Assembly: GCA_017510335.1 (NCBI GenBank) | Contig: JAFWNM010000028.1 | Coordinates: forward strand, 186,001-250,000 | DNA from: Paracoccaceae bacterium | Lineage (GTDB): Bacteria > Pseudomonadota > Alphaproteobacteria > Rhodobacterales > Rhodobacteraceae | DNA: 64,000 nt | Direction: 5' to 3' | Part shown: positions 5,750 to 24,383 of the stretch, one piece after another | Layout of the letters: every line of letters starts with the position of its first letter | How positions within the stretch are numbered: position 1 is the first letter of the stretch | Position numbers and translations under genes: made by a program | The notes under the pieces: generated by a model | Database searches by the model: none | Seen by the model: the letters and a program-made list of their open reading frames with translations, nothing else | Told to the model about the DNA's origin: nothing

Positions 5750-6676
5750 TCAGGCGAGCCACGGCGTGACGCGCACTTCGACCGCCTCGTAGTTCGCGTT
5801 CGATGCCCCGCCTTCGCCGAACATGACCTTGACGGTCTTGTTGGCCGAAGCGCGCAATCTGGGCGGAACAATCAGGCGCGTCGGGGTAATGCCCAAGGGA
5901 CGCCCGCCATCACCCTTGAATTCCATCATCGTTGCGATGGCTTCGTCCAGGTTGTCGCCGGTCAGCGGCTTGTGGCTTTTATAGGCCTTCTGCCAGAAGC
6001 CATAGCCGCCATTGCAACGATAGCGGATGCCGTAGAGATACTGGTCCTTCAGGAACACCTCGTCTGAATTCGAGGAGCTTTCCTTGGTTTCCAGTTCCGG
6101 CTTGGTGCGCTCCTGGAAGATGAAAGGCAGCACTGCGTCGGACGCATCGATCAGATACCACGCCGGGGTTGCAGTGACCCCGCCATTATCATCATAGTTC
6201 GACACAGTGCTGGCAGCACCGGTGCCATCATGATTGGCATAAACCGGATGATCCGTGTCAAAGAAGTTCTGCCCGTCAAAGCACAGCGCCGCATGGCCAT
6301 TTTTCATCAGCTCGGCCGTGATTATGTCGGGATGGCGCGCGGCCGCCTGACCCATGCGGGTAAACCGCATGCCGTAAGTGCCCAGATTGTCATCCTCGAT
6401 ATGGGTACGCTTGATGCCCACTGTGCTTTCAAACGTCCGGTTGGTGATCTGGTAGGCGTTTTCCTTCATGTCCTTGATGACACGATCACCGATCCATTCG
6501 CGCAGCTCGGGGAAGTCGCCCAGCCAGTCATAGGTGTTAGATGCAGTGGTGGACGGGATGACCATCGCCGCATCGCGGTAGAAGGTCTGCGGCATCATGC
6601 CATCGAAACCTGTACGGAAGGCTGTGTGGACCATCGTGCGCAGGGCAGTGAGTGTTGCATTCGTGATCATCGGCAT
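5750..6676 (-). CDS. Major capsid protein (Mu gpT family)
   Basis: This 308-residue protein forms the icosahedral shell. It has the Mu-like gpT pattern: an N-terminal TALRTMVHTAFRTGFDG, the WLGDFPELREWIGDRVIKD block and VGIKRTHIEDDNLGTYG, then LCFDGQNFFDTDHPV in the middle and a C-terminal GITPTRLIVPPRLRASA segment. Length equals the Mu T family. It follows the protease/scaffold gene by 3 bp, with GGAGACC as ribosome site. Confidence 0.95.
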   Translation of the reverse strand: MPMITNATLTALRTMVHTAFRTGFDGMMPQTFYRDAAMVIPSTTASNTYDWLGDFPELREWIGDRVIKDMKENAYQITNRTFESTVGIKRTHIEDDNLGTYGMRFTRMGQAAARHPDIITAELMKNGHAALCFDGQNFFDTDHPVYANHDGTGAASTVSNYDDNGGVTATPAWYLIDASDAVLPFIFQERTKPELETKESSSNSDEVFLKDQYLYGIRYRCNGGYGFWQKAYKSHKPLTGDNLDEAIATMMEFKGDGGRPLGITPTRLIVPPRLRASANKTVKVMFGEGGASNANYEAVEVRVTPWLA

Positions 6677-6679
6677 GGA

Positions 6680-7174
6680 TCAGGTCTCCTGTGCCGCGCG
6701 TGCGGCTTTGAAATCATCGGGGGCCATTCCCCAGGCGCGGCACATCGCCAACTCTTCACTGCTGAGCTGGTCGGCCTGCACCTTGGGGTCGGTCGTTTTG
6801 GGCGCAGGCTTGTCCGAGACGATGACTGGCGCGGTCCCGATGAAGCTGCGGAACGTCTCCAGCCCGCCATCAGCCCGGCAGACGGCCAAGTGATACTCCC
6901 GACTGGCTGGCGCGACCTTGCCCGCTTCGATCGCGGCATCAACAGCCGCCTCGATCTCCGCCTCGCGGTGCGTTTTGACTTCGGTTTCCAGCTCGCTGAC
7001 GCGATTGGTGGCCAGTTCATAATCCGCGCGCGGCACGAACTGCGCGGGATCGGGGTTTGCAGCACGGTTCAGCGCAGTGTCTGCATCCGTGCGCAGCCTG
7101 GTGATCGCGACCACGGCATCTGCCGCGCTCGCATCTGGCTTGAGGCCAAGGGCCTGAAGGACGGCAGCGTCCAT
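6680..7174 (-). CDS. Internal in-frame start producing scaffold protein (Mu gpZ type)
   Basis: Within the protease gene, codon 169 is ATG (7172-7174) preceded by GAGGAG at 7181-7186 with a 6-bp spacer, a far better ribosome site than the one before the full-length start. The 164-residue product would contain only the coiled-coil scaffold half and end with the same C-terminus. In Mu, the scaffold Z is encoded as the 3' part of I, which is the family precedent. Seen: the SD and in-frame ATG. Inferred: that it is used. Confidence 0.7.
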   Translation of the reverse strand: MDAAVLQALGLKPDASAADAVVAITRLRTDADTALNRAANPDPAQFVPRADYELATNRVSELETEVKTHREAEIEAAVDAAIEAGKVAPASREYHLAVCRADGGLETFRSFIGTAPVIVSDKPAPKTTDPKVQADQLSSEELAMCRAWGMAPDDFKAARAAQET

Positions 7175-7678
7175 CTCTGTCTCCTCAAATTCGCCTTCGC
7201 GGTTCAGCGCAGGCATGGTGAAATTCGGCAGGTTCGTAAGACCCGCCGAAACGATCCGACGCACTGCGCCAGTCAGCTTGTGAAAATCGAAACCGGGGCT
7301 GATGAAGCGGTAGCCACGCGTGGCAATAGCCTCGCGCCCGCTGTCATTCCATTCGACGCGACCCCATATCGCGCCGTCGCGGGCTTCCATCTCACGGATC
7401 CAGCCAGCAGCATCGGCGCGCTCGCCGCGCGCGCCCTTCACATGGGTGGCGTGTTCGAAATCGACCGGGATAAGCCGCCCACCCGCCATATTCGCCCGAC
7501 AGGTTGCCACAACGGCTTCGGGGTCTGCCATTGTCCAGATGCGTCCATCCATTCCCTCAAGGCGCGGGGCCTTGGGGGTGATCTGGATCCATTCGGGCAC
7601 CTCGGTTGTGTCGTTTGGCGCGGCCAGTTCCGAGTTCAGCGCGATAGGCAATGGTGAGAGAAAAGCATGTGCGTTCAT
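6680..7678 (-). CDS. Head maturation protease fused to scaffold (Mu gpI family)
   Basis: This 332-residue protein corresponds to Mu gpI. The N-terminal half is the protease: IPVDFEHATH provides a candidate catalytic His near residue 77 and YRFISPGFDF a Ser near residue 124. The C-terminal half is a helical scaffold with a coiled coil around RADYELATNRVSELETEVKTHREAEIEAA. In Mu, the scaffold Z is made from an internal start within I, and the same appears true here (separate entry). The ATG at 7678 lies only 4 bp after a shared late-promoter element, so the mRNA leader may be extremely short. The capsid gene follows by 3 bp. Confidence 0.9.
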   Translation of the reverse strand: MNAHAFLSPLPIALNSELAAPNDTTEVPEWIQITPKAPRLEGMDGRIWTMADPEAVVATCRANMAGGRLIPVDFEHATHVKGARGERADAAGWIREMEARDGAIWGRVEWNDSGREAIATRGYRFISPGFDFHKLTGAVRRIVSAGLTNLPNFTMPALNREGEFEETEMDAAVLQALGLKPDASAADAVVAITRLRTDADTALNRAANPDPAQFVPRADYELATNRVSELETEVKTHREAEIEAAVDAAIEAGKVAPASREYHLAVCRADGGLETFRSFIGTAPVIVSDKPAPKTTDPKVQADQLSSEELAMCRAWGMAPDDFKAARAAQET

Positions 7679-7682
7679 GCCT

Positions 7683-7731
7683 GCACAATCGCAAGTCAGG
7701 CACAGGCAATCAGCCTCGACAGATGTCGAGG
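7683..7731 (-). promoter_or_regulatory. Predicted late promoter for head genes (dyad plus conserved element)
   Basis: On the minus strand an 18-bp perfect dyad CCTCGACA-TC-TGTCGAGG (7714-7731) is followed after 13 bp by CCTGACTTGCGATTGTGC (7683-7700). Both parts, and the 13-bp spacing, recur upstream of the lysozyme gene at 15152-15200. The dyad is the likely binding site of the Mor/C-type activator encoded at 15241-15627. If the dyad is centred near -42, as for Mu C, transcription would begin within a few bases of the protease ATG. Confidence 0.7.
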
Positions 7732-7739
7732 GCAGTCAT

Positions 7740-7888
7740 GATATTGCACGCTTTGGGAAAGATCGCGAGAGCGGCTCACACAGCCGCCTTGCTTTCGTCA
7801 CGGTATCAGCACGCCCGCGAACCCGTCCAGCCCCTTTAATGGGTATTTAACGGCGCGCTGTGGCCGCATTGCGCCCCGGTCCCCGGCT
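7740..7888. other. Non-coding gap between gp30-type gene and late promoter
   Basis: This stretch lies between the end of the head morphogenesis gene and the late promoter. I see no convincing ORF and no clear terminator. It contains AGCGGCTCACACAGCCGC, a short imperfect hairpin, and a run of mixed sequence without repeats. Confidence 0.4.
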
Positions 7889-8788
7889 TCATGCGCCAGC
7901 AGGTGCGAAAATCCGCCGCAACGCTTCAAGAAATGGCAGGTCTTCGCGCCAGTCCGGATGACGGCGCGCGCGTTCCGCCATCCAGCCATCTTCGAGGTCG
8001 CGCAGGGCCACGCGGGCAACCTCTGGCGGGACCGATACGGCCTTGCCCTGTAGCATGTCGATGCTCGCCTGCACACGCTGCGCGCCCGGATTGCGCTCCC
8101 ACCCCGGATCGATGCCCACAGGCACGCGGCGCACTTCGCCGGTGCGGGTGTTTGTCACATCATGCATTGGCACGTCTGGGCTGGTGCTGATCCCGCGCTC
8201 TTCAGCCTGCGTGCCCGTTAGCTGGCGCACCCAGCATTTGCAGCCCCAGCCATTAGGCGGATACCAGGAGGCCCAGAACGGATCATCGGCAGCAAGCACC
8301 ATCCCTTCCTTCGCCTGGTGATGGGGGCGGTGGCGCTCGGACGGGCCAAGGCGGTATTCCAGATAGGGCAGCGCACGCTTGCTGCGCTGGATGCGCTCCC
8401 ACTGGCCAGCAGCCCGGGCTGCGCGCAGGTTGGACTGGTAGATCACGCGCAATCGGCGGGGCGATCCAAGCTGGACCGCGCGCGCCTCTCCTGTGGCAGG
8501 ATCGACCATTATGGATTGTCCCCACCAGCCGCGTGCCTCCAGACGCGGGCGCAGGTTGCGCTGGAACTGCTCAAAAGGAATGCCCTCATCCAGCGCGCGC
8601 TGCAGCTCGTCGCGGATATCCTTCAGGACATCCATCTGCATGGCCTTGGCCACGGTGAAGGCCGTCGCGTGTTCTTCCGGTTCGACATCCTGCCAGCTGA
8701 AGGCAGGCAGCCAGTCCTTGTTTGCAAGAAAGCGCGAGGCTTCGGGCGGCGGGCCGGGGGTGAAGGAATACGCCGGGCGGTCAGCCAT
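7889..8788 (-). CDS. Head morphogenesis protein (Mu gp30/F, SPP1 gp7 family)
   Basis: This 299-residue minor head protein belongs to the Mu F-like / SPP1 gp7 family, associated with the portal and early capsid assembly. The central region has the family pattern LRVIYQSNLRAARAAGQWERIQRSKRALPYLEYRLGPSERHRPHH, and the Cys-containing FWASWYPPNGWGCKCWVRQLT segment is a hallmark. The start MADRPAYSF at 8788 overlaps the portal gene's end by 8 bp; an upstream in-frame start is ignored because it reads deep into the portal gene. Confidence 0.92.
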   Translation of the reverse strand: MADRPAYSFTPGPPPEASRFLANKDWLPAFSWQDVEPEEHATAFTVAKAMQMDVLKDIRDELQRALDEGIPFEQFQRNLRPRLEARGWWGQSIMVDPATGEARAVQLGSPRRLRVIYQSNLRAARAAGQWERIQRSKRALPYLEYRLGPSERHRPHHQAKEGMVLAADDPFWASWYPPNGWGCKCWVRQLTGTQAEERGISTSPDVPMHDVTNTRTGEVRRVPVGIDPGWERNPGAQRVQASIDMLQGKAVSVPPEVARVALRDLEDGWMAERARRHPDWREDLPFLEALRRIFAPAGA

Positions 8789-10301
8789 CCTGCACATCCC
8801 CTTGAGCACGTGCCAGGAACATGCCCTTGACCAGAACATCGATCACGCGTGCGCTGTCGATCGGGCCGAGCGCGTCCAGCCTCAATAGCGCGTCCTCATA
8901 GCTCGCCGCATTCCTGATCGCCTCCTCGACCGGGTCGAGCACCTCGCGCATGACGGGTTGCCAGTCTTCCAGCATCTCCGCCTCGATCTCGTCCAGCGCA
9001 TCCTCCGGGGCGTCACCCTTGCGGTTCAGCGCCAGCGCGGGCGGATCGGCGGGCGGGGGCGTACCGCCCACAACCTCCTCGCCATTCTGTGGCTCCGAGA
9101 ACTTGAGCGCCGTGCGCAGTTCGCGCGAAGGCACGCGCAACCCGCGCCCGATCAGACCCTCTGCAGCCTTCATCCGCTCGGTCGTATTGTCTGGCTCCGC
9201 AATCTCGATGAAGACTGTGGGGTAGCCTTCCTGCACCCCGTAATTCAGATCGACATAGGGTTTGACAATATCGCGCTGGATCGTGCCGGTTACCCCGCGA
9301 GCATCCGCCGCTGCAATGTCATGGCGCACCTCGTTATGGACCTGCGCCTGCGCCTGGCTGGATCCGTTATCGCTGGTCATTGTCTGGCCAAGCACTGCTT
9401 TTGACGTCTGCTCGTCCAGATAGCGCGCAAGGTTCTCAAACAGGTGCTCGCCACCCGCACCCCCCGCAACGGCCTCAAACTCGATGCGCATGCTCTCGGG
9501 TAGAACGGCGGCGGCATCAGTTCCGATATTGGCAACAGCTTGGAACAGCTTTTCGACATCCTCGCGCGTAGCGTCAGGGCCGTAGCGCCCCAGTCTCAGC
9601 GGCAGGCCATAAAGCTCGGCGAAGGCCACCCAATCCTTCAGCGCAAATGCCTTGCACATCCAAGTGAAAGCCGAAAGCCGCGCAAGTCCTCCGCGCAGGG
9701 GGATGCCTGATTTCAGGCGGGGTGTGTGATAGGCGAATTTGAAGGGTGCAAGCGGGATTCCGTCCACCGGGTCGGCCTCATCCAGCAGATGCGGCACACG
9801 CAAGGTGTCGCGGTCGAAACGGATGAAGCGCGGATCAACATGCTCGAAACGGTCGGGCCACCATTCGCGTTTGGACCGCGCCCAGTCGATTTCCACGACA
9901 GCAAAGCCCTTGCCCAAACCATCCAGCAGATCTTCAACCATATCGGCAAAGCCGGAATGCTCAGCGATCCGCGCGCGTACGGCCTCTGCGATTTCCTTGT
10001 CGCGGGCACTGTCGGACGCTGGCTTGACCTGCGCGCTCACGCCAGAGACTGCGCGCTTGCGTACACCAAGCACAGAGGCGTAATGCGGATCGCGCTCCTC
10101 CATTTCCTCGGCCAGCGTGACGTAGGGAACGTGATCCCCCTGATCACAGGCTGCCAGGATCGAGGCCAGCCGTTGCGGGGTCAGCCCCGATGCGGTGCTG
10201 CCGCCCCAGGCCTGCCGGATACCGGTAATGCCCGGGCGCGCCATGGTTTGCGTCAGGGTCTGCGTTTTGACCGGGCGACCGTATTGATCGAGCAACGCCA
10301 T
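8781..10301 (-). CDS. Portal protein (Mu gp29 family, DUF935)
   Basis: This 506-residue portal of the DUF935 family forms the dodecameric ring through which DNA is packaged. The N-terminus has YGRPVKTQTLTQTMARPGITGIRQAW; later ERDPHYASVLGVRKRAVSG and the KDWVAFAELYGLPLRLGRYG block are diagnostic. The C-terminal 80 residues (EMLEDWQPVMREVLDPVEEAI) form a helical crown. The ATG shares one base with the terminase stop (TGATG). Confidence 0.94.
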   Translation of the reverse strand: MALLDQYGRPVKTQTLTQTMARPGITGIRQAWGGSTASGLTPQRLASILAACDQGDHVPYVTLAEEMEERDPHYASVLGVRKRAVSGVSAQVKPASDSARDKEIAEAVRARIAEHSGFADMVEDLLDGLGKGFAVVEIDWARSKREWWPDRFEHVDPRFIRFDRDTLRVPHLLDEADPVDGIPLAPFKFAYHTPRLKSGIPLRGGLARLSAFTWMCKAFALKDWVAFAELYGLPLRLGRYGPDATREDVEKLFQAVANIGTDAAAVLPESMRIEFEAVAGGAGGEHLFENLARYLDEQTSKAVLGQTMTSDNGSSQAQAQVHNEVRHDIAAADARGVTGTIQRDIVKPYVDLNYGVQEGYPTVFIEIAEPDNTTERMKAAEGLIGRGLRVPSRELRTALKFSEPQNGEEVVGGTPPPADPPALALNRKGDAPEDALDEIEAEMLEDWQPVMREVLDPVEEAIRNAASYEDALLRLDALGPIDSARVIDVLVKGMFLARAQGDVQDG

Positions 10302-11710
10302 CAGATCACTCCTTTCATACCGCCAAGGCCCGAAGTCAGCCTGATGCGGCGCATGTCATCATCACCGCCACCACCACGCGGAACGGGGCGGTATTCATAG
10401 GGCTGGTAGGTCGAGCGTGCGGCGCCCACGGCCAGCGCACCGGCCCAGAACCGGTCCGCATGCCCGTCTGTATCGCCATCGGCCACCAAACGGCGCTGAC
10501 CCGTGATCCCCACCTGTGACTGGATGGCGTGCAGATCGGCGCGCAGGACCACATCACCAGCAGGTATGCGGGCGCGACGTTCTTCCATGGCTTCCTTAAG
10601 CGCTGTCGCAAGATCAAGCTTTGTAGCGGTCGAGAACAGCACGCCTTCGACGCGGCTTTCCCCATGTCGACGTTTGGCATCCTCGACAGGTTTTTCGCCC
10701 ATGCCGGTCTGGTCGATCGCGCAACGCACCACATGGTACCGGCGCATCACGTCGGCGAGCAACTGATCCTGTTCGGCAAACTTGATCCGGCGGCGTGCGA
10801 TGATCTCGCGCGTCCAGAGCACATCACCCACCTGCTCCAACACCCAGATGACGAACAGGTCATTGCGGGCTGCGATATCGACGCCCACGAAACACGGGCC
10901 ACCCTGATATAGCGCGGGCAGCCCGGCGGCGGGGTGCTCATTGGCAGAGATCAGATCATAGCTCAGCCATGCGGTGGCTTCGTCCAGCCACTTCAGCTCG
11001 TATTCCTGCGCCCAGGCATCCTCGTCGGCCATGCCACGGCGCAGCATGTCGATGTCGCGGTCCAGCCCTTGGCGCACGGCCTCGTAGATATCGACGATGT
11101 GGCGCGACCAGACGCTGTCCTCGGCAGTCATCAGCTCATAGAACTTGTTGCCCTTGCCATTGGGCGTGGAAATCACGCGCAGTTTCAGGCCAGATTTGGA
11201 TATCACCGGAAAAAGCGCCGCCCAGATTTCGCGCGACTTCGCATGGAAACCGAATTCGTCCAGGATCACATTGGCCGAAAACCCGCGCGCCGTGTCGGGG
11301 TTCGCAGGTAACGCCGTGATGCGCGAGCCATTGGGAAACTTCACTTCCAGCGACTTGTAGACCGCATCGGGGCCTTTCTCCTGGGGGGCACGGAACTCGC
11401 CCTCTTCAAAGCGCGGTTCGCCCCCTTTCAACAAGGTGTTGTAGACCTCGTAAAAGCCCTTGGTGAAAGGCTTGATCACCTCAGTCATCATCTCGGCTGC
11501 CTGACGCTCGCCGCGTGACAGGATCACCCAGCGCGCCCGCCGGTCCTCGATCCACGACTGGAAGCAATCGTCGGCGCATTCGCCGCCCGTCGAGAAGGTC
11601 TTTCCGGTCTGGCGTGAAAACATGCCGATCTTGAACCGGCTCTGATCGTTGATCCAGCGGTTCTGGTAGGGCAGGAAGTTGACGACGCGGGCGAGTGCGG
11701 TGTCAGCCAT
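10301..11710 (-). CDS. Terminase large subunit (Mu gp28 family)
   Basis: This 469-residue packaging motor has a Walker A-like FSRQTGKT at about residues 31-38, a Walker B VILDEFG at about 148-154, and a nuclease half with VGVDIAARNDLFVIWVLE (first acidic residue) and CAIDQTGMGEKPVEDAK (second). It cuts and pumps phage DNA by headful packaging in Mu-like phages. It lies immediately upstream of the portal gene. The promoterless 82-bp space to its right separates it from the divergent moron at 11793. Confidence 0.94.
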   Translation of the reverse strand: MADTALARVVNFLPYQNRWINDQSRFKIGMFSRQTGKTFSTGGECADDCFQSWIEDRRARWVILSRGERQAAEMMTEVIKPFTKGFYEVYNTLLKGGEPRFEEGEFRAPQEKGPDAVYKSLEVKFPNGSRITALPANPDTARGFSANVILDEFGFHAKSREIWAALFPVISKSGLKLRVISTPNGKGNKFYELMTAEDSVWSRHIVDIYEAVRQGLDRDIDMLRRGMADEDAWAQEYELKWLDEATAWLSYDLISANEHPAAGLPALYQGGPCFVGVDIAARNDLFVIWVLEQVGDVLWTREIIARRRIKFAEQDQLLADVMRRYHVVRCAIDQTGMGEKPVEDAKRRHGESRVEGVLFSTATKLDLATALKEAMEERRARIPAGDVVLRADLHAIQSQVGITGQRRLVADGDTDGHADRFWAGALAVGAARSTYQPYEYRPVPRGGGGDDDMRRIRLTSGLGGMKGVI

Positions 11711-11792
11711 GGCGGACCCCTGCAGTACTAGGCCAAGCTGACATGGCAGTATATGCTAAAATCCGAATCTCTTTACCAATTTGGAGCAAATC

Positions 11793-12266
11793 ATGGATTT
11801 CGATTTCGAGACGTTGAACAACGCGGTCGGTCTGGCCAGGGATGTCGGTACGGCCACTGGAAACATCGCCAGAGCCATTCAAACCGTGCAGGGTCTTTTC
11901 CAGAAATCGCCAGTTGGCACTGATGCCGATATCAAACTTGCGCTCAGCGATCTGACTTTGCAGGTAGCAAATGCGCAGATGGCAAATGCGCATCTGAAAG
12001 GTCAGCTCTTGGCGCTGCAACAAGAACTCGGGAAAGCGAAAGCGTTTAAGTCGGACCTTGAAAAATACGTTCGACAGGAAACTCAAGCTGGAAGCATCGT
12101 TTATGCCTTCAACGATATGGACGCAGTAATGAGAGGTGAGCCGCTTCATTACCTTTGCGCATCTTGCATTGAAGACGGCCACAAGTCGATCCTTCAGGGG
12201 GACAAGTACTTTCGAAAATGCCCCAAGTGCAAAACTGAGTTCGGCTTTGAACCTTGGGGGGGTTAG
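11793..12266 (+). CDS. Inserted opposite-strand gene (moron) with coiled coil and Zn-ribbon
   Basis: This 157-residue protein is not recognised. Residues about 1-40 are amphipathic, 45-95 form a predicted coiled coil (SDLTLQVANAQMANAHLKGQ, LLALQQELGKAKAFKSDLEK), and the C-terminus has a zinc-ribbon-like pair, CASC and CPKC, about 25 residues apart. The start at 11793 is set by GGAG at 11783. It is the only plus-strand gene within the late cluster, sits between terminase subunits, and its base composition is clearly more AT-rich than its neighbours. This is typical of a lysogeny-expressed moron gained separately. A function in host physiology or phage exclusion is possible; none can be assigned. 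Confidence 0.8.
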   Translation: MDFDFETLNNAVGLARDVGTATGNIARAIQTVQGLFQKSPVGTDADIKLALSDLTLQVANAQMANAHLKGQLLALQQELGKAKAFKSDLEKYVRQETQAGSIVYAFNDMDAVMRGEPLHYLCASCIEDGHKSILQGDKYFRKCPKCKTEFGFEPWGG

Positions 12267-12277
12267 TTTCCTTGCCC

Positions 12278-12478
12278 TCACGCAGACACCTCGCGGATCG
12301 ACCACAGATACGGAACCCCGCACCAGACAGCGATGCGATTACGACAACCCAGATGATCGACCAAGTGATGCTTGCCGCAAATCACCGCCGCGATGCGCAC
12401 CCACCAGCGCGCCGCACGCCAATGGGCATCGGTGACGAGAATGAGCATCGAGCGGTCAATTCTGGCATCGTCAATCAT
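12278..12478 (-). CDS. Small hypothetical phage protein
   Basis: This 66-residue ORF begins with an ATG at 12478 overlapping the end of the DUF3486 gene by 8 bp and stops 11 bp short of the convergent moron. It contains a hydrophobic stretch (WWVRIAAVICG) and several Cys and Trp residues. No family is recognised. The overlap and the lack of other function for this interval support it, but its ribosome site is weak, so it could be non-coding. Confidence 0.45.
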   Translation of the reverse strand: MIDDARIDRSMLILVTDAHWRAARWWVRIAAVICGKHHLVDHLGCRNRIAVWCGVPYLWSIREVSA

Positions 12479-13016
12479 CACCAAACCCCATTATGCGCCG
12501 CGCCTTGGCTGCGGCCTCTTTGTCGATGTCGCCTGCCTCGACTGCCTCATCCAGCTTTGCAGCCTGCGCCTTGCGTTCGGCCACGATCAGGCTTTCACGG
12601 ATACCCGAGGACGCCATAACGTCCTTCAGCATCCGACCCAGAAAATGCAGTTCTTTAGGATCAATCTCCCCGCCCTGCTTCAGCATCTGTGATTGCATGA
12701 CTTTGAAAGCGAGCGTGGTGATCATCTGGAACAGCACGTTGTGGCGCTTGGCTTCCTCGGCCAGACCTTGTTCCTGCATCCAATCCGTCGCCCATGCGCT
12801 GGCCTGCTCTTGGTATTTGACGAACTCCTCGTATTCCTGACCGAAGGCATGGAGTGCGGATTTGCGGATGCGCAGTTCCGAGCCTGCCTCTTCCAGGCGA
12901 AAGTTCAGCGCCTCTGCCAGATCTTCATAACCACCGAAGCCGCGCGCGCGCAGCTCTTCCTGTAGCCATCCCTTCAACTCGGCGGGCAGCAGATCGACCT
13001 TGCGCGGCGGGGGCAT
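12471..13016 (-). CDS. Mu gp27-like protein (DUF3486), putative terminase small subunit
   Basis: This 181-residue DUF3486 protein stands where Mu gp27 stands, just before the large terminase subunit in the transcript. The N-terminus PRKVDLLPAELKGWLQEELRARGFGGYEDLAEALN contains a helix-turn-helix suited to DNA recognition; the rest is helical (MQSQMLKQGGEIDPKELHFLGRMLKD). A small terminase role is the accepted view for the family. The divergent moron now separates it from its partner gene. Confidence 0.88.
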   Translation of the reverse strand: MPPPRKVDLLPAELKGWLQEELRARGFGGYEDLAEALNFRLEEAGSELRIRKSALHAFGQEYEEFVKYQEQASAWATDWMQEQGLAEEAKRHNVLFQMITTLAFKVMQSQMLKQGGEIDPKELHFLGRMLKDVMASSGIRESLIVAERKAQAAKLDEAVEAGDIDKEAAAKARRIMGFGDD

Positions 13017-13019
13017 GGA

Positions 13020-13328
13020 TCAGACCCCGCGATTGCGCGGATGCGGGCGCTGGATGTCGGGATGCGTGGTTGCGCCCTGCGCGATCTCGATCCCGCGCTC
13101 CGTCGCTGTGGCGATGACAAAATCGCCGCGATCGTCGTTTTCCGTGAAACCGTTTTCGGCCAGCCACGTAAGTTCCGTGATGACTTGAGAGCGTGTCGAT
13201 GTCACACCTACGCCGCGCAGCACATCCACGAGGATCGAGGCATTTGATGTGAATTCCGAGCAGCGCTCCAGATGGCGCAGGATGGCCAGTCGCCGGTGTT
13301 TGCGCAGGGTTGCCAGATAGTCGCTCAT
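13020..13328 (-). CDS. Phage protein of the VpaChn25_0724 type (winged-helix)
   Basis: This 102-residue protein starts with YLATLRKHRRLAILRHLERCSEFTSNASIL, followed by a second helix-turn-helix-like region STRSQVITELTWLAENGF and a short beta wing. I recognise the pattern as a common small protein next to gp27 in Mu-like phages. A DNA-binding role is likely from the fold; target unknown. It overlaps the DUF2730 gene by 4 bp. Confidence 0.75.
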   Translation of the reverse strand: MSDYLATLRKHRRLAILRHLERCSEFTSNASILVDVLRGVGVTSTRSQVITELTWLAENGFTENDDRGDFVIATATERGIEIAQGATTHPDIQRPHPRNRGV

Positions 13329-13708
13329 CGCTTGCCTCCATCGAGCAGGTGATCTTCGTGGCGCGTGACCACCAACTCCAGCCGCTGCATCACCTTTGCA
13401 TTGCCTTCCATCACGGCGCGCATTTCACGCAGGTCTCCCCCCATCGAGGCGAGTGTCAGTTCCAGCTGGTGCAAAGCTGCATGGCCGGGCATGCTACCAA
13501 CAGTCTGGTTCAGACCCGCAATCTGATTGGCATGGCGCTCTGCAAGGCGCTCGGTTTCCACGAGCCGTACCTCGGTCTTGGCAAGGCGCTCGGATAGCTT
13601 GCGCGTCGGCCCCGAAAAGATCGACCAGGCCATGTTGGCGAAATTCGCGAGCGTGGAGAGGCCAGCAATCCAATAGATCAGGGGCGCAATATCCATCACT
13701 TCACTCAC
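13325..13708 (-). CDS. DUF2730 phage membrane/coiled-coil protein (possible spanin-like lysis accessory)
   Basis: This 127-residue protein has one N-terminal membrane segment (IYWIAGLSTLANFANMAWSIF) and a long coiled coil (LSERLAKTEVRLVETERLAER and LRGDLREM-type heptads). This is the DUF2730 layout found between the holin and gp26-27 genes in Mu-like phages. It may act as an inner-membrane spanin component, but that is an inference from topology and place. GTG start at 13708 overlaps the holin stop. Confidence 0.75.
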   Translation of the reverse strand: MSEVMDIAPLIYWIAGLSTLANFANMAWSIFSGPTRKLSERLAKTEVRLVETERLAERHANQIAGLNQTVGSMPGHAALHQLELTLASMGGDLREMRAVMEGNAKVMQRLELVVTRHEDHLLDGGKR

Positions 13709-14217
13709 GCCCCACCTCGCGTGACCCGCACGAAGTCCTTCAGCGTATGTCCACCCATGTAAAGCGCCATATATACGCTGGTCAGGCCCAGAAGTGTGGC
13801 GCTGTCAGTGGGCGGCAGGGCAATCTTCCAGATGGCGTTGGCCAGATGCAGTACCACGATATTCCACAACCACAGGAAGGCCAGCAGCCACATCATGAAG
13901 GGTCGCCAGGCCCAGCCCAGCCAATGGCCTTTCTGCTCGGCCTGAAGCAGCGCGAACTGGCCTTCAAGCCCCTGCGCATACAGCGCAACCATTTCCGGCA
14001 TCATCGCCTCGGTCGCGCGCACGGCATCGACCATGCGGCTTGGATCGCTTTCGGCCAACTGGCCCAGATCAGACGTGCCCACACCCGCGCGTCGGGCGAC
14101 AGCTTCCACCACGCTGGTTACCAGCTCCGAATTCCGCGAACCGATACGGTTGGAAAGAACCTGCCGGATCAATGGGGCACCGATCTGGGTTGCGACAGAG
14201 AGAAGGGCTGCACTCAT
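13705..14217 (-). CDS. Holin (3-TM type)
   Basis: This 170-residue protein has a soluble N-terminal half (VVEAVARRAGVGTSDLGQLAES) and hydrophobic segments WRPFMMWLLAFLWLWNIVVLHLAN and LLGLTSVYMALYMGGHTL, as in the Holin_3TMs group. The start MSAALLSVATQ at 14217 shares one base with the lysozyme stop. It would release the endolysin at the end of infection. Position directly after the endolysin supports the call. Confidence 0.82.
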   Translation of the reverse strand: MSAALLSVATQIGAPLIRQVLSNRIGSRNSELVTSVVEAVARRAGVGTSDLGQLAESDPSRMVDAVRATEAMMPEMVALYAQGLEGQFALLQAEQKGHWLGWAWRPFMMWLLAFLWLWNIVVLHLANAIWKIALPPTDSATLLGLTSVYMALYMGGHTLKDFVRVTRGGA

Positions 14218-15122
14218 CAGATGCTCCAGAGTTTGTGGGCAAGTTTGGGGAAGCGGGGCGCGATGGCCGCTGCCAACGCGTCGCGATAGCGCCATGCCAG
14301 CCACAGGCCCCAAAGCAGACCAACGGCAAGCACGGCCGGACCGATCCAAGCAAGCGCAGGATCCAGTTCCGCACTTGCCTGAACCGTAGTATCCGCACCA
14401 CCAGCGGCAGTAACGGCGGCAGGCGTCGCTGCCTTGGTTCGGCTGTCGATCACACGCTGAAGGGCCGAGAGCGTTGCGCGTCCGACAATCCCATCAACGG
14501 TCAGATCATGATCTTTCTGAAAGGCACGGATGGCAAACAGCTCAAAGCCACGTATATCATCGCCGATCTGATACCCCAGCTTCAAAAAAGCAGCGCGTGC
14601 GGCAGCCATTTCTTCGCGCGACAAGTCAACGACAACACGCGCCAGACCATCGCGGCCACCCTGCGCGCGTACACCTTGGCCGTAGTCACGATATCGCAGC
14701 ATGCGATATTCCTCTTCGCGCCGCCGTGTCAGGCCAGGCAATACGCGCCCGCCGCCCTTGTTCCAGGCCAACAGCCCCGCGCGCGTGGCGTCCCAGTTTC
14801 GCTCAGCCCAGCGCTTCACCCAGGATGCCCGACCGATTGCGCCGGTATTGAAATGGAATGACACGCCCGCGTCGAATTCATGCTGTTTCGCACGTGGCAT
14901 TGCAGCTTTGACGGCAGGCTCATAGTTGTGCCGTAGCGCCAATTGCAAAAGGCGCGTGGACTCTGCCTCGCTGATTGTCATGCCCGCACGCGGTTTTACC
15001 ACGCCCGAAGCAGCTGTAAGACCAACGCCAATGGTCCAGACACCCGCCGGGCAGCGATACGCCTTGAGAACATCGCCCTCATGCCGTTTCTTGAAGGCAA
15101 TCCCTTGTGCGCTTGTTTGCAT
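14217..15122 (-). CDS. Endolysin: GH24 lysozyme + peptidoglycan-binding domain + C-terminal TM helix
   Basis: This 301-residue endolysin has three parts. Residues 1-150 are a T4/P21-type lysozyme with the catalytic spacing E15, C24, T30 in KKRHEG..RCPAGVWTIGVGLT. Residues about 165-230 are a PG_binding_1 domain ending in KDHDLTVDGIVGRATLSALQ. Residues about 255-290 hold one membrane helix (IGPAVLAVGLLWGLWLAW). The Cys in place of Asp is seen in other phage lysozymes. No N-terminal signal is present at the ATG chosen; a GTG 11 codons earlier would add a few hydrophobic residues. The C-terminal anchor suggests tethering to the inner membrane until holin action. Confidence 0.9.
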   Translation of the reverse strand: MQTSAQGIAFKKRHEGDVLKAYRCPAGVWTIGVGLTAASGVVKPRAGMTISEAESTRLLQLALRHNYEPAVKAAMPRAKQHEFDAGVSFHFNTGAIGRASWVKRWAERNWDATRAGLLAWNKGGGRVLPGLTRRREEEYRMLRYRDYGQGVRAQGGRDGLARVVVDLSREEMAAARAAFLKLGYQIGDDIRGFELFAIRAFQKDHDLTVDGIVGRATLSALQRVIDSRTKAATPAAVTAAGGADTTVQASAELDPALAWIGPAVLAVGLLWGLWLAWRYRDALAAAIAPRFPKLAHKLWSI

Positions 15123-15152
15123 GAAAAAAACCCCGATCCAAACCGATAGGGG
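15123..15152 (-). terminator. Hairpin plus T7 tract between mor and lysozyme
   Basis: On the minus strand CCCCTATC-GGTTTG-GATCGGGG (15131-15152) forms an 8-bp stem with one mismatch, followed directly by seven T residues (15124-15130) and then the lysozyme ATG. This is a rho-independent terminator layout that would stop early transcripts arriving from mor. The late promoter's start point would fall at the base of the hairpin, so late transcripts would carry it at the very 5' end, where it could also mask the GGGG ribosome site. Confidence 0.55.
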
Positions 15153-15200
15153 CACATTCGCAAATCAGGGGGGATGGATACGCCTCGACAGGTGTCTAGG
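15152..15200 (-). promoter_or_regulatory. Predicted late promoter for lysis/head operon
   Basis: On the minus strand the near-perfect dyad CCTAGACA-CC-TGTCGAGG (15183-15200) is followed after 13 bp by CCTGATTTGCGAATGTGC (15152-15169). The second element matches the one before the head protease gene at 16 of 18 positions, with identical spacing. It lies between the Mor-like activator gene and the first late gene, the same place as Mu's lys promoter. Confidence 0.7.
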
Positions 15201-15240: not shown

Positions 15241-15627
15241 CTATGTCCTGTCAAATGGCAGTGTGGGCTGGCGCGCGCCACGTTCGGCTTCAAGCTCTGC
15301 ACGCAGTCGGGACACCGTGCGCGTGTGCATATCGCACTTCAGCGCCACCTGTTGCAGCGATGCGCCGTCGCGCAACATGCGCCGCGCATCTTCGCGCCGC
15401 GCGAATTGACCGCGAAGATGGCCGCAGGGCAACAGCACCTTGCCAGGCCCAAGTGCATCGACAACGCGCGCGGTCGCCTCCTCGCCAATGATCTCGGCCA
15501 GCATCGACCCGGCGACGCGGCGGGGAATATGGATCTCGCATCCACCGCGCCGCCTGAGCAAGCGCACGGCCAGATCAAGGCCAATGGCGTCTTCAATCTG
15601 ACCAGCTATGCCCGGCAGTTGCGTCAT
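15241..15627 (-). CDS. Mor/C-family middle-late transcription activator
   Basis: This 128-residue protein resembles Mu Mor and C. The N-terminal half is a dimerisation region (LPGIAGQIEDAIGLDLAVRLLRRRGG, then the beta-strand IHIPRR). The C-terminal helix-turn-helix is DGASLQQVALKCDMHTRTVSRLRAE. Proteins of this family bind dyads overlapping -35 and recruit RNA polymerase to phage middle and late promoters. It is the last early gene before the late region, and the two dyads at 7714 and 15183 are its likely targets. Confidence 0.88.
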   Translation of the reverse strand: MTQLPGIAGQIEDAIGLDLAVRLLRRRGGCEIHIPRRVAGSMLAEIIGEEATARVVDALGPGKVLLPCGHLRGQFARREDARRMLRDGASLQQVALKCDMHTRTVSRLRAELEAERGARQPTLPFDRT

Positions 15628-15878
15628 TCCAGTACGCGCCCCCGACGCTTGGGGCCGATCCGGTTGTCGCAGCGATGTGCGCGCAGGACTGTCGTGACGG
15701 TGTTGTTCTCTATTCGATAGCTGAACCCGCCGATAATGATCCCGCAGGCCCCCAGCGTCGCCGCATGATCGACGCGTGCCCCGATCTCGCGGCGCAGGCG
15801 CTCGATATCCATACCCTGTACCCGCTCAAGATAGCGCAGCACAGCATGGTCCGACACAGAGACGCGGGACTTTTTCAT
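15624..15878 (-). CDS. Small phage early protein
   Basis: This 84-residue protein begins MKKSRVSVSDHAVLRYLERVQG and has a basic C-terminus (HRCDNRIGPKRRGRVLE). The SDHAVLRYLER segment is seen in many alphaproteobacterial phage proteins of unknown role. The start at 15878 overlaps the GemA stop by 4 bp, and the end overlaps mor by 4 bp. No function is assigned. Confidence 0.75.
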   Translation of the reverse strand: MKKSRVSVSDHAVLRYLERVQGMDIERLRREIGARVDHAATLGACGIIIGGFSYRIENNTVTTVLRAHRCDNRIGPKRRGRVLE

Positions 15879-16312
15879 TTTGTTACCTTGAGGCCCGCGC
15901 GACGGCACATCGCTTTCAGCGCTTCCAGCACCGCTGCGATCTGATCCGCTTCGCGCATCGCATCGATATCGACAGGAACATGCCCCCAACTTGCACCGAA
16001 GCGCTTGCGGATGAAGGCATTGAGTGCGCGCCGCCCTGGTGTGACCTGACCGGCGCGCCCCAGCTTGCCCCAAAGCGCGTGGATGTAGCGCAGGTCAGGG
16101 CGCTCGGCAGTGGGCTTCCAGTTCGGGTTCGGCGCTGGCTTGAAGCCCCTGTTTTCCAGTACGTTCAACAGCGCCTTCAAATCAGCTTCGGACATCTCCC
16201 GCATGCTGGACTTGCCCGTGACCTGTTCCTGCAGATCACGGCGCATGTCGTCATCCAGCCCCAGCGCACGGCAGCCCATAAACACCTTGCGTTGCAATGA
16301 ACGGTCCGTCAT
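15875..16312 (-). CDS. gemA: GemA-like regulatory protein (Mu gp16, DUF1018)
   Basis: This 145-residue DUF1018 protein is the counterpart of Mu GemA, which alters host DNA topology and gene expression during the lytic cycle. The signatures are the N-terminal RKVFMGCRALGLDDDMRRDLQEQVTGKSSMREMSEADL and the WGKLGRAGQVTPGRRALNAFIRKRFG region. It lies shortly before mor, as in Mu. Confidence 0.88.
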   Translation of the reverse strand: MTDRSLQRKVFMGCRALGLDDDMRRDLQEQVTGKSSMREMSEADLKALLNVLENRGFKPAPNPNWKPTAERPDLRYIHALWGKLGRAGQVTPGRRALNAFIRKRFGASWGHVPVDIDAMREADQIAAVLEALKAMCRRAGLKVTK

Positions 16313-18197: not shown

Positions 18198-18757
18198 ATG
18201 CCACCTGCCATATGCGTGAATTCGCAAAGATTCTCATCATAGACTGCGCGCACGCGGCGCTCGCGTGGTGGCAACGGTCCAGTGTTGCGAGTCAGCCGAT
18301 AGGCCGCTTCACGCCGCCCCGGGACGGCCTTGCGCTCAACCTTCAGATATCCGGCGCGCGCCAGCATCTGGCAGTATTCCTGCGCCGCTGCGAGCGTCAC
18401 ATGGCAGGTGGGCGTGTTAGAATGCGCTGCGATATCGGTGGGCGTGAACACGCGCAGCCCGCGCATACTCCGCCACATATTTCCCGCAACGCTCTCATGC
18501 CGAATTGCGGAGCCATCACGTCGCGCGGGAGCCGGGCGGTCATCCTGATTAACGCGAAACCCTTGGCGATTGCCGATTTTTCCGATGCGCGAAACCGCGT
18601 TGCGGGCTTCCCAGCTCCGTACCAGCGCGGTCGCACTTCTGATGCCGATGCCAGTTTCCGCTGAAATATCCTTATAGGTGAACTCTACTTTGCGCGTTGC
18701 GATATTCCACGCCAGAGCTGCGCGGGCCTCATTTCTTTGACTGACTTTGCCACTCAT
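18194..18757 (-). CDS. Winged-helix DNA-binding early protein
   Basis: This 187-residue protein carries two helix-turn-helix-like regions, FTYKDISAETGIGIRSATALVRSWEARNAVSRIG and VFTPTDIAAHSNTPTCHVTLAAAQEYCQMLARAGYL, with basic linkers. The ATG at 18757 overlaps the MuB-type gene by 4 bp. It may assist replication-transposition or regulation. I do not recognise a named family. Confidence 0.7.
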   Translation of the reverse strand: MSGKVSQRNEARAALAWNIATRKVEFTYKDISAETGIGIRSATALVRSWEARNAVSRIGKIGNRQGFRVNQDDRPAPARRDGSAIRHESVAGNMWRSMRGLRVFTPTDIAAHSNTPTCHVTLAAAQEYCQMLARAGYLKVERKAVPGRREAAYRLTRNTGPLPPRERRVRAVYDENLCEFTHMAGGI

Positions 18758-19497
18758 GCCACGTTCCTCCGGGGGGCAGGCGCATCCCCAGTGAAGAACA
18801 ACCGGACGTCCCAATCACCCACACCCATTTCATTGCGGCCCATCATTTTCGCGCGCTCGGACACCTTGGCGATATTGACGCTGATCCGGCGAATAGAATG
18901 GTGCGAATGTTTCAGGATCGCCTCGCAAAGGGGGCGGTCAAAATGAACCCCGGCTGCATAAATGGGTAACAGTTTTTCCACATCGTCTATCGTACCAGGT
19001 TCAGCCGCCACCCAATCGAGCATGCGGCCATGCACACGCTCCCATTCCTTCAGCTTTTGAGGCAGCAACTCTTCGCCAATCAGGATCACAGGCGATTGCG
19101 AGCCTTCGTAGATATCTCGCACGATCTCGATCATCTTGCGCGCAACCAGGTGATCGGCTTCATCAATCAACAGCGGCGCGCCAGTGACCGCCAGATGCTC
19201 GGATATCTGATCGACCATATCGCCGATGCTCCGCGCAGGACGTACTGCCATCTCCCCAAGCACCGCCTCGCAGAATTTCTTCTTTGACCATGCAGATTTG
19301 ACCTGAACCTGAAATGCCTGAAACCGGTTCTCCGCGTAAACTGCCGCCGTGCTCTTGCCGAAGCCTGAAGGCCCGTAGAAACACGCCATGCCGGGCAGAC
19401 CCAGCGCCCGGGTCGAAACGCGATCCACCAACGCCACCAGCGCCGCCACGTTGCGCAACGGTGCTACGCTATTGTAAAGCTGCCTCTCGTCTGTCAT
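18754..19497 (-). CDS. MuB-like transposition target-selection ATPase
   Basis: This 247-residue AAA+ ATPase equals the MuB role: it coats target DNA, delivers it to the transposase and gives target immunity. Walker A is FYGPSGFGKST, Walker B is PLLIDEADHL, and the later LLPIYAAGVHFD..ILKHSHHSIRRISVNI region is the sensor-2/C-terminal helix block. The ATG at 19497 is favoured because AAGGAG lies 6 bp before it. MuB itself is longer (312 residues) because it has an N-terminal DNA-binding extension that is reduced here. Confidence 0.9.
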   Translation of the reverse strand: MTDERQLYNSVAPLRNVAALVALVDRVSTRALGLPGMACFYGPSGFGKSTAAVYAENRFQAFQVQVKSAWSKKKFCEAVLGEMAVRPARSIGDMVDQISEHLAVTGAPLLIDEADHLVARKMIEIVRDIYEGSQSPVILIGEELLPQKLKEWERVHGRMLDWVAAEPGTIDDVEKLLPIYAAGVHFDRPLCEAILKHSHHSIRRISVNIAKVSERAKMMGRNEMGVGDWDVRLFFTGDAPAPRRNVA

Positions 19498-19556
19498 CTT
19501 CATCTCCTTGCTACCGCTCTGCCACCGGTGGGCGTTGCACCGCCCCCGGCGGTTCT

Positions 19557-21662
19557 TCATCCGAGATAGGACACCCCGAAATCTTCCATCATCTTCTTGT
19601 GCGCCCGATAATCGGACGTCTGGGAATACATGATCAGGAAACGCTCCTGCTCTGGCGCTAGCGCCTCACCAGCATCGCGCTTCGCCTCCAGCTCCAGCGC
19701 CCGCTTGAACCGCTCGATATCGCTTTCGCCCTGGTCATTGGGTTTCACACGCCGTGTCTGCAGATCCGCCACGACAGCGGCCTGCGCATCAGACAGGTCA
19801 GGACGCGGGGCTTCTGGCGCAGGGTCGCGCCGCTTCTCGAAGACTGGGCGAACCACCTTCGCTTCAACCGCTGGTGCGGGGTCCGGCATTGTCGCCGCAT
19901 CCAGATCGCGGCCCAGATCACGCGCCTGTAGCTTGCGATGCGCGGCCACCGCAGCACGCTCTGCTTTGAGGAACGCCGCGCGATCGCGCGCTGTCCGACG
20001 CGCATCATCAATCGACAGGAAGCCACCCTTTTCACGGGCAGGGGCATGGCCGAGATACTCGTTCTGCGCCGAGTAGACATGCAGGCCAGCCCACAGGTCG
20101 GCAGGATCGAACCTTGCGATCACGCGCGTGCCTGCGATCTCATGCATCCATGGGGCCCAGTACTGGTTGCCCTGGAACTTCAACTCACCTGTACTGGATT
20201 TGCCGCGCAGGCCTTCGGCTCCCATCAGCCACAACCGGCGCTGCGCCTCGGTCGCCTTGCGGATCGGCACACTGGCGTAGCTTTCGTCGAACACCTCTCT
20301 GAAGCTACGGCCCCATGCGACTTCCGAACGACGACCTTGCCGCAGATTGTGCTCTTGAATGCCCTCTTCAACGATGCGCAGGAACTCGTCGAGCGGCACC
20401 GCGCGATTGCCGTAATTTTCGGGCTTTGCGTCAATGGTATTGCCGGTCCACGCGCCCTCAAGACGCGGGTCGCGGCTGATCGCGTCACACATATCGCGGA
20501 ATGCGCGTTCGATGGGCTTGGACTGCCCGCTATAGGGCGTGGCCCAGTGCACATCGACCCCGAGAGCCACGAACAACCCCGGTATGTCATCCTCGCGCAC
20601 CTTGAAGCGGAACCGCGTGGCTGTGCCGCCTGTGACCAGTTTGGCGGCAAACTCGCGCCCGTTATCAAGGACCACATGGTCAGGAATACCCCAGTCCTCA
20701 ATCATGTCACCTGCGGCTAGCATGACACCATTGGAATTGGCCGTCAGATCCAGCCGCCACGACAGGATCAGGCCGGAATAGATATCCTGAAAGGCCACCA
20801 TCTGCGGGCGCACGGGCTGTGCTTCCCCCGGCCAACGCACGAACACATCGAACTTGTGGTAATCCGCATTGACGACTTCCATCGCCCGCAACGCTGATTT
20901 GTCTCGCACCTGCGGCGGGAACATCTGCTTCAGACGCTCAAGCCCGTAGCGTGCCAGTATTTCGGTCGGTCGTGATACCTGCTCCTTGTAGCGCCGCCGC
21001 ATAGTGTGCTCCGGGCAGATCGCCCAGCCCTTGGATTGCGCCACCCTCACGGCCCGACGATAGCAGGTCGAAAAGCTGGGCCGCGCCAGCCTCAGATAGT
21101 CGGATTTCAACCAATCCATAAAATCCGGATCAACCTCGTCACGCGTTTCCTTGCGCTTCGCGGCACGGTGGCGGGGTGCCAGATATGGCAGCCGGTCATC
21201 ACGGCGCACTCCTTCGATCATGCCCAACCAGTTCCAGATGCTACGGGCACTGGCCGATTCGATGCGCGCAACGCTCTCGACCGCCATATGCCGCCCCAGT
21301 TCCCCCTCAAGCGCTTCGACAGACTGAATGATCTTCAGCCGCACGCGCGCTTTATCTTGCGCTGTGTCTGGCAATCCCTCAAACCATGTCCATGCACCAT
21401 CCCGATCCGGGGCAGGCGTGACTTCCGGCGAAGTGGCCTCCGACAGCAGCTTGCGCTGTGCACGCATCGGCAGGGCCTTCCAGTGATATTCCCACCCGCC
21501 GCCACGCCCCTGGCGTTTGCGCGCAAAATCAGGGTGGCCGCGCAGATTGATGGACTTGATCCACTTCTCGACGCCTTGGCGCGTATCTGGCATGTCCGGC
21601 AATCCGGCCACGGCCAGTTCCGATGCTGTCCACCATTCCTTTGCAGGGGTAAGATTGCTCAT
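19557..21662 (-). CDS. MuA-like DDE transposase
   Basis: This 701-residue transposase drives integration and replicative transposition. Residues 10-75 are the Mu-type winged-helix DNA-binding domain (WWTASELAVAGLPDMPDTRQG). The catalytic triad is D267 (VNADYHKFD), D333 (VVLDNGREF) and E385 (SKPIERAFRD), almost the same numbering as MuA D269/D336/E392. The C-terminal 150 residues are helical and basic, for MuB contact and strand transfer. Full length suggests a functional enzyme. It precedes the MuB gene as in Mu. Confidence 0.96.
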   Translation of the reverse strand: MSNLTPAKEWWTASELAVAGLPDMPDTRQGVEKWIKSINLRGHPDFARKRQGRGGGWEYHWKALPMRAQRKLLSEATSPEVTPAPDRDGAWTWFEGLPDTAQDKARVRLKIIQSVEALEGELGRHMAVESVARIESASARSIWNWLGMIEGVRRDDRLPYLAPRHRAAKRKETRDEVDPDFMDWLKSDYLRLARPSFSTCYRRAVRVAQSKGWAICPEHTMRRRYKEQVSRPTEILARYGLERLKQMFPPQVRDKSALRAMEVVNADYHKFDVFVRWPGEAQPVRPQMVAFQDIYSGLILSWRLDLTANSNGVMLAAGDMIEDWGIPDHVVLDNGREFAAKLVTGGTATRFRFKVREDDIPGLFVALGVDVHWATPYSGQSKPIERAFRDMCDAISRDPRLEGAWTGNTIDAKPENYGNRAVPLDEFLRIVEEGIQEHNLRQGRRSEVAWGRSFREVFDESYASVPIRKATEAQRRLWLMGAEGLRGKSSTGELKFQGNQYWAPWMHEIAGTRVIARFDPADLWAGLHVYSAQNEYLGHAPAREKGGFLSIDDARRTARDRAAFLKAERAAVAAHRKLQARDLGRDLDAATMPDPAPAVEAKVVRPVFEKRRDPAPEAPRPDLSDAQAAVVADLQTRRVKPNDQGESDIERFKRALELEAKRDAGEALAPEQERFLIMYSQTSDYRAHKKMMEDFGVSYLG

Positions 21663-23711: not shown

Positions 23712-24383
23712 ATGCAGATGGACCCGATTCTTGAAACCATTGATGCGGCACTAAAGCGAAAAGGCCTGTCGGACGCGGCGGCCTCTAAACTTGCGGTTGG
23801 TCATCCATCGCTCATCAAGAACCTTCGCATGGAGCGAAAAGGCGAGAAGCGCTACAATCTTCCAGCGCTACAACGTCTATCCGAAGTCCTCGATCTTGAA
23901 TTCTATTTCGGACCGCCGCGAAGCGCAGGAATAGCGCCATCTACGACAGTAGCGGGCGAACAATTTGATACCGTCGCCCGATATGATGCAGCAGGCGCGG
24001 CAGGAAATGGGCGGATCAACCTCGACGGCCCACCTATTGATCATCTTGCGTTCTCGAAGCGCTGGCTGGCTCAGAACGGGATCAGTGCAGGTGACAGTGT
24101 TCTGATCAATGTCTCTGGCGACAGCATGGAACCTGCATTTTACGATGGCGACTTGGTCATGATTGACCGGCGCAAGAAAATCATCCGTTCAGGCCAGATT
24201 TACGCCTTCCATGACGGCGATGAACTGCGCATCAAGCGCATGGAAGTTATTCCAGACACAGCCATAATCTTGCGCAGTGATAATCCAAAACACTCGACTG
24301 AGCACCGCACAGGCAATGCAATGAACGACATTAGCCAGAACATCCTTGGCCAAGTCGTCTGGTCAGGGCATACTTGGATTTGA
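23712..24383 (+). CDS. S24/LexA-type phage repressor
   Basis: This 223-residue repressor has an N-terminal DNA-binding region (residues about 1-65) and a C-terminal S24 protease domain with catalytic Ser138 (NVSGDSMEP) and Lys175 (LRIKRM). The Ala-Gly pairs around residues 94-98 are a plausible self-cleavage site, so induction by RecA after DNA damage is expected. Mu's own repressor is not of this type. The gene is divergent from the early operon across the operator array. Confidence 0.9.
   Translation: MQMDPILETIDAALKRKGLSDAAASKLAVGHPSLIKNLRMERKGEKRYNLPALQRLSEVLDLEFYFGPPRSAGIAPSTTVAGEQFDTVARYDAAGAAGNGRINLDGPPIDHLAFSKRWLAQNGISAGDSVLINVSGDSMEPAFYDGDLVMIDRRKKIIRSGQIYAFHDGDELRIKRMEVIPDTAIILRSDNPKHSTEHRTGNAMNDISQNILGQVVWSGHTWI

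Follow-up and report, generated by a model that had tools for sequence, protein, structure and literature searches.

In phage Mu, the activator Mor acts at the promoter Pm through a dyad centred at -43.5, with the -35 element absent, and four late promoters have related dyads to which the activator C binds (PMC4287176). Solved structures exist for both proteins, Mor in 1rr7 and 9l0y and C in 9vw8, and include an initiation complex with Mu C (9l0x). Two similar 49-bp stretches in a Mu-like prophage of a Paracoccaceae bacterium are compared here with these and other systems; they are very probably late promoters under a Mor/C-type activator, working in the manner of Mu C and Mor. In each of these composites, an 18-bp dyad is best read as the operator of the activator, with a predicted centre near -44.5, and a second block downstream of the dyad as the -10 region of the promoter.

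The window analysed is a stretch of 64,000 nucleotides, corresponding to C22:186001-250000 of a 3.6-Mb draft genome. On its minus strand lie the transposition genes A and B, gemA and a Mor/C-type gene, together with the genes for lysozyme, terminase, portal and F and those for protease I and capsid T (Table 1), while the right arm, with tape measure, tail sheath and DNA methyltransferase genes, lies mostly outside the window. The head protease begins at ATG 7678. The lysozyme gene most likely starts at ATG 15122, which is preferred because the GTG at 15155 given in the list of open reading frames falls within the motif. The late block is interrupted by a gene of opposite orientation, 11793-12266 (+), which matches phrog_1244, of unknown function, has no Pfam match and looks like a moron.

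The product of the gene at 15241-15627, which lies after gemA and before the lysis gene as expected of the Mor/C family, matches phrog_836, late transcriptional activator (PHROG, 1.3e-19). Against the Pfam Mor profile PF08765 it scores 22.6 bits (1.1e-4), which does not reach the curated cut-off of 24.9, and a search of its own genome with this profile at E 0.001 gave no match. Fold comparison with solved Mor (1rr7) and C (9l0x) did not single out Mor. By these profile matches, membership of the Mor/C family appears supported in PHROG and marginal in Pfam.

Table 1. Candidate late promoters and their gene setting in the window
Feature	Position	Strand	Basis or remark
Transposition genes A (DDE_2) and B (AAA), presumed early block	18754-21662	-	Pfam
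gemA, upstream of the activator as in Mu	15875-16312	-	GemA 4.7e-23; Mu order
Mor/C-type late activator gene P0001, 128 aa, presumed end of early block	15241-15627	-	phrog_836
Candidate operator dyad, lysozyme promoter	15183-15200	-	CCTAGACA-CC-TGTCGAGG, one stem mismatch; predicted centre -44.5
Putative -10 element GAATGT, lysozyme promoter; TTTGC before it, TGn as in an extended -10	15154-15159	-	Dyad-centred alignment
Predicted transcription start, late block 1	15147	-	Inferred, 7 nt past last -10 base
Terminator-like hairpin with T7 tail, between lysozyme promoter and ATG	15124-15153	-	Fold, scan
Lysozyme/endolysin gene P0003, first in late block 1	14217-15122	-	Phage_lysozyme 4.1e-28
Late block 1 head genes: terminase large subunit, portal, protein F	7889-11710	-	Pfam
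Candidate operator dyad, protease promoter	7714-7731	-	CCTCGACA-TC-TGTCGAGG, perfect; predicted centre -44.5
Putative -10 element GATTGT, protease promoter; CTTGC before it	7685-7690	-	Dyad-centred alignment, automated test
Predicted transcription start, late block 2, at A of protease ATG (predicted leaderless)	7678	-	Inferred
Head maturation protease gene, Mu I-like, P0002, first in late block 2	6680-7678	-	Mu-like_Pro 1.1e-49
Major head protein gpT gene, next in late block 2	5750-6676	-	Mu-like_gpT 1.5e-109

The first-pass annotation of this DNA had described a duplicated 18-bp dyad, with one mismatch in the second copy, followed at the same 13-bp distance by a second block and located upstream of the first gene of each late block, i.e., lysozyme and head protease. 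All of these elements were found again at those places, and all of them are oriented along the minus strand, as the late genes are, the strand having been left unstated. At up to three mismatches the window has no dyads beyond these two, where 0.26 would be expected, and two matches were reached in 2 of 100 shuffles. The second block, CCTGAYTTGCGAWTGTGC, occurs at 7683-7700 and 15152-15169 and, at the same tolerance, nowhere else in the window (0.45 expected; two matches in 7 of 100 shuffles). Taken alone, the dyad and the CCTGAYTTGCGAWTGTGC block are each moderately unusual and not far beyond chance, while their joint arrangement is: with equal strand and spacing, the composites share 35 of 49 positions, and the runner-up stretch in the window 28. 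Two such similar stretches in one prophage could have arisen through recent duplication of a single intergenic stretch, without regulatory meaning. Their identity is, however, nearly confined to the dyad, the second block and a few adjacent bases, the flanks and what remains of the 13-bp spacer being different, and other prophages carry lineage-specific dyads paired at both places, which contradicts a duplication and leaves it a negligible probability.

From related prophages, 36 sites, hand-picked by their dyads or shared motifs, were aligned on the dyad centre alone, with +1 defined as the 45th base from that centre. In a -10 element, A(-11) and T(-7) are the bases that matter most. At these predicted positions, A was present in 33 and T in 34 of the 36 sites, the runners-up outside the dyad being G at -8 (25/36) and G at -14 (24/36). 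A and T were also enriched at -32/-31 (22 and 23 of 36), just past the dyad, as in CTGAT or GCGAT. The 36 leave out eight sites of L056, L057, L059 and L161, with another dyad or odd length, only three of which have both bases at the same offset; L002, there identical to L003, and L044, identical to L009; and a group whose motif was less clear, found later or unrecognised, including L045, L055, L061, L134, L138, L145, L155, L157, L158, L163, L164, L166 and L168. The second block is accordingly read as a -10 region and not as a second binding site.

Because the 36 sites were hand-picked, an automated test was added, in which every exact GACANNTGTC was collected from 64 loci (1.15 Mb), without the duplicates L015, L019 and L044 and without loci whose stretch has no Mor gene, and with L143 and L144, which are copies from a single genome. 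The 44 dyads obtained comprise 15 after Mor, 11 before the protease, 7 before Mor and 11 elsewhere. A(-11) and T(-7) occur together in 12 of the 15 after Mor (L010, L055 and L138 fail) and in all 11 before the protease, jointly 23/26, as against 2/15 and 0/11, jointly 2/26, when the same dyads are read in reverse; the relatedness of the phages means that such site counts overstate independence. None of the seven dyads before Mor, which belong to a second prophage type and are tandem or single, follows the rule, and in L060 and L148 the spacing is one base shorter. Among the 11 dyads elsewhere, both bases occur in two in the forward reading (L054, L155) and in none in reverse, and these two resemble the dyad of the same phage before the protease or after Mor. 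Late-promoter-like sites, each with A(-11) and T(-7), are found outside the two expected places at L054:5119 and L155:10006.

A promoter scan of the minus strand at both window sites gave no -35/-10 pair, and a promoter-like pair that overlaps the protease dyad on the plus strand is at chance level (2 in the stretch vs 2.2 expected). A -35 match being absent at the sites, an activator would be expected, and a dyad centre -44.5 from the predicted +1 equals the geometry of Mu Mor (-43.5) within one base. That the layout would be what a Mor/C-type activator needs had been proposed earlier, and this idea gains support from the phrog_836 match and from the -10 bases at a Mor-type distance. The dyads would suit repressors too, and a possible repressor, an S24-peptidase-type gene, lies at 23712-24383, so the sites might be operators at which the prophage repressor or another DNA-binding protein silences the late genes. 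It is highly improbable that they are, given the lack of a -35 match, the spacing within one base of Mu Mor, operator letters that vary with a Mor-type helix, and the presence near the S24 gene of only a weak match, at 22417 (up to two substitutions).

On the protease side, the predicted +1 falls on the first base, A, of the gene's ATG, and the protease transcript should therefore be leaderless. The same coincidence, with ATG at bases 44 to 46 past the dyad centre, is seen at 16 of 22 protease sites, the exceptions being L151, L152, L153, L154, L161 and L172. Each of these 16 ATGs was judged by eye to lie in the protease reading frame, and none has any of four Shine-Dalgarno strings within the 24 nt before it. 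ATG likewise falls on the predicted +1, again with no such string before it, at both second-type sites (2/2). In the alphaproteobacterium Methylorubrum extorquens, whose transcription starts have been mapped, leaderless mRNAs, with a 5'UTR of 0-9 nt, make up 7% (PMC9320726). For an essential head gene, the geometry predicts that a leaderless mRNA is conserved.

Relatives were drawn from genomes of the same genus, family, order and class that have Mor-like genes, and the stretches around these genes were compared. The first-pass annotation had suggested looking for the motif before the same genes in related prophages, and it is present there in L002-L006: both composites occur in L003, whose activator is 91% identical, and the protease of L002, L004, L005 and L006 is preceded by the dyad in the same position. 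In a same-genus genome, L131, the dyad precedes lysozyme. Among 28 phages in which the activator precedes the protease by more than 5 kb, one dyad was recognised by eye at both places in 16 (L003, L047, L049, L056, L057, L059, L133, L135, L136, L145, L151, L152, L153, L154, L159 and L161). The paired dyads often have letters of the phage's own, as in GGTAGC..GCTACC (L056, L057, L059), CCCTGACAATTGTCAGGG (L151) and TGGTGACAGGTGTCACCA (L159). A second dyad site lies farther away in L054, and L048 and L050 have the protease copy only, in the stretches compared and at up to three substitutions. By an ungapped measure, which did not recover Mu's own mapped promoter pair, a clear shared stretch is absent in 10 of the 28 phages. 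For late promoters of the tail or mom type, no dyad within two substitutions of CCNNGACANNTGTCNNGG was found in the 20-kb right-arm stretch L046, which holds tail sheath, tape measure and DNA methyltransferase genes.

In 21 phages with activators less than 85% identical, operator distance correlated with recognition-helix distance (Mantel r 0.46, p 1e-4) and also with distance in the rest of the activator (r 0.37, p 0.003). R-T-V helices accompany at least one GAC or GAA half-site, and the T-T-V helices of L056, L057 and L059 accompany GGTAGC. Judged from these sequences, operator letters vary with the recognition helix, part of the correlation being shared descent; the letters are lineage-specific and the layout is more widespread.

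Dyads at operon ends can be viewed in another way, as intrinsic terminators or RNA hairpins that close the early and first late operons and resemble each other through that function. The window dyads do sit at Mu-type operon ends, the protease-side 49-nt composite folds at -17.4 kcal/mol (z -3.06), and, in a terminator scan of 44 sites, a T-rich tail follows the dyad in 5 (L133 P, L151 M, L172 M, L056 P, L161 M). None of these five is in the window, however, where no T-run directly follows either dyad and the lysozyme-side stem has a mismatch; moreover, the two copies of a phage share letters beyond what pairing requires, and termination leaves the fixed-distance -10 unexplained. Termination as the basis of the likeness is very unlikely on this evidence, and the promoter reading is preferred.

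A terminator-like hairpin of a different kind overlaps the lysozyme promoter. Its left arm spans -6 to +3, mostly upstream of the predicted +1, and the fold amounts to -12.4 kcal/mol with the left arm vs -1.5 from +1, so a transcript arriving from upstream would have both arms and one begun at +1 would not. The hairpin should stop read-through from the Mor transcript and spare a transcript begun at 15147, and it would hold lysis off during activator synthesis. L131 has a stem with other letters at the same position (-18 vs -1.2). Among 20 sites after Mor that were scanned, a hairpin was flagged only in the window prophage and L131; a possible third, with a longer loop, was seen by eye in L059, and the nearest relative, L003, has none.

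The draft genome contains three dyads of the pattern CCTNGACANNTGTCNAGG, two in the window prophage and one, at C33:69291-69308, in another Mu-like prophage, where it precedes a second Mor-like gene that is followed by capsid T and protease genes. Its centre lies 43.5 nt before the ATG, with TAAGGT at -12 to -7 from the ATG; a same-genus genome, G1028 (L148), has TATGGT at the matching place. In prophages of this second type, the Mor-like gene is preceded by GACA-N2-TGTC dyads that stand singly or in tandem, 16-17 bp apart, at L060:1862-1914 (C33:69291-69343), L148:1384-1418 and, in L143 and L144, ~1354-1399. Since the late operators of both prophages are of the same class (CCTNGACANNTGTCNAGG), the activator of one co-resident transposable prophage might conceivably fire the late genes of its neighbour. 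This reading of cross-talk, which is put forward tentatively, includes a family in which helix and operator change together and the -44.5/-10/start-codon geometry is nearly fixed.

Under the preferred reading of the composites as Mor/C-dependent late promoters, the end of the early operon would yield the Mor/C-type protein, a dimer of which would bind the GACA-N2-TGTC dyad at about -44.5 in place of a -35 element and enable the host's RNA polymerase to open a promoter with a -10 element (GAWTGT) alone. The lysozyme-side promoter would start the lysis and packaging block, and the protease-side promoter the protease, capsid and tail block (predicted +1 positions in Table 1), while the terminator at the former would separate the activator transcript from the lysis gene. 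These comparisons suggest a testable rule for late promoters in transposable phages, namely a shared dyad after the activator and before the protease, followed at fixed distance by a -10 element and +1. Late promoters are unannotated in the phage records examined, and the prophages compared offer a natural set of activator-operator pairs for learning how Mor/C proteins read DNA. A detailed check of the promoter model is possible because the Mu C initiation complex has been solved.

The open-licence literature covered, in the portions available, included PMC9936078, PMC4378225, PMC5488378, PMC9239132, PMC4287176, PMC9320726 and PMC4461284. Among the matches listed, such operators were not described in work on Mor, late promoters and Mu-like phages or in work on RcapMu, and the core motif had no match, which is consistent, for that literature, with the first-pass remark that no motif of such sequence had been described. 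The mechanism is known from Mu Mor and C; the operator, the fusion of promoter and start codon, and the terminator overlap look new.

Among the systems compared, the Rhodobacter phage RcapMu (NC_016165, L172) has the same order of activator, endolysin and protease and one dyad at both late blocks, CCCCCGGACCTGTGTCCGGGGGTTTTGC, whose copies are 36/40 identical. It differs in the dyad itself, CCCGGAC-N4-GTCCGGG, in an activator only 29% identical over 111 residues and in the absence of an ATG at the predicted +1 of the protease site. TTTTGC follows the paired dyad at L172:4949 and L172:13370, of which the terminator scan flagged the first only, and this dyad may be operator and terminator both. 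The Pseudomonas phage B3 (NC_006548, L173) likewise repeats one dyad before its lysis genes and protease and also before the tape measure gene: three perfect TTTTCG-N6-CGAAAA copies lie at L173:11566, 19835 and 26818, before holin, protease and tape measure, with no further dyad at up to two substitutions in 38,000 bases. B3 is unlike the window prophage in dyad letters, in having its activator at the other genome end, in the number of sites and in the lack of A(-11)/T(-7) at this offset. The B3 protease may begin later than its annotated start at 19857, given an in-frame ATG at base 44 past the dyad centre.

Mu itself differs from the window prophage in its operator letters, in its two-step cascade of Mor and then C with four late promoters, where a single Mor/C-type gene and two sites were found here, and in the hairpin after C, which lies wholly before Plys, whereas the hairpin here overlaps the predicted +1. 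The likenesses are a dyad at the activated promoters (Plys, PI, PP and Pmom by C, Pm by Mor), bound by a dimer in Mu and, as predicted, here, the lack of a usable -35, as in Pm, the placing of late promoters ahead of lys and I, and activator genes between gemA and lys.
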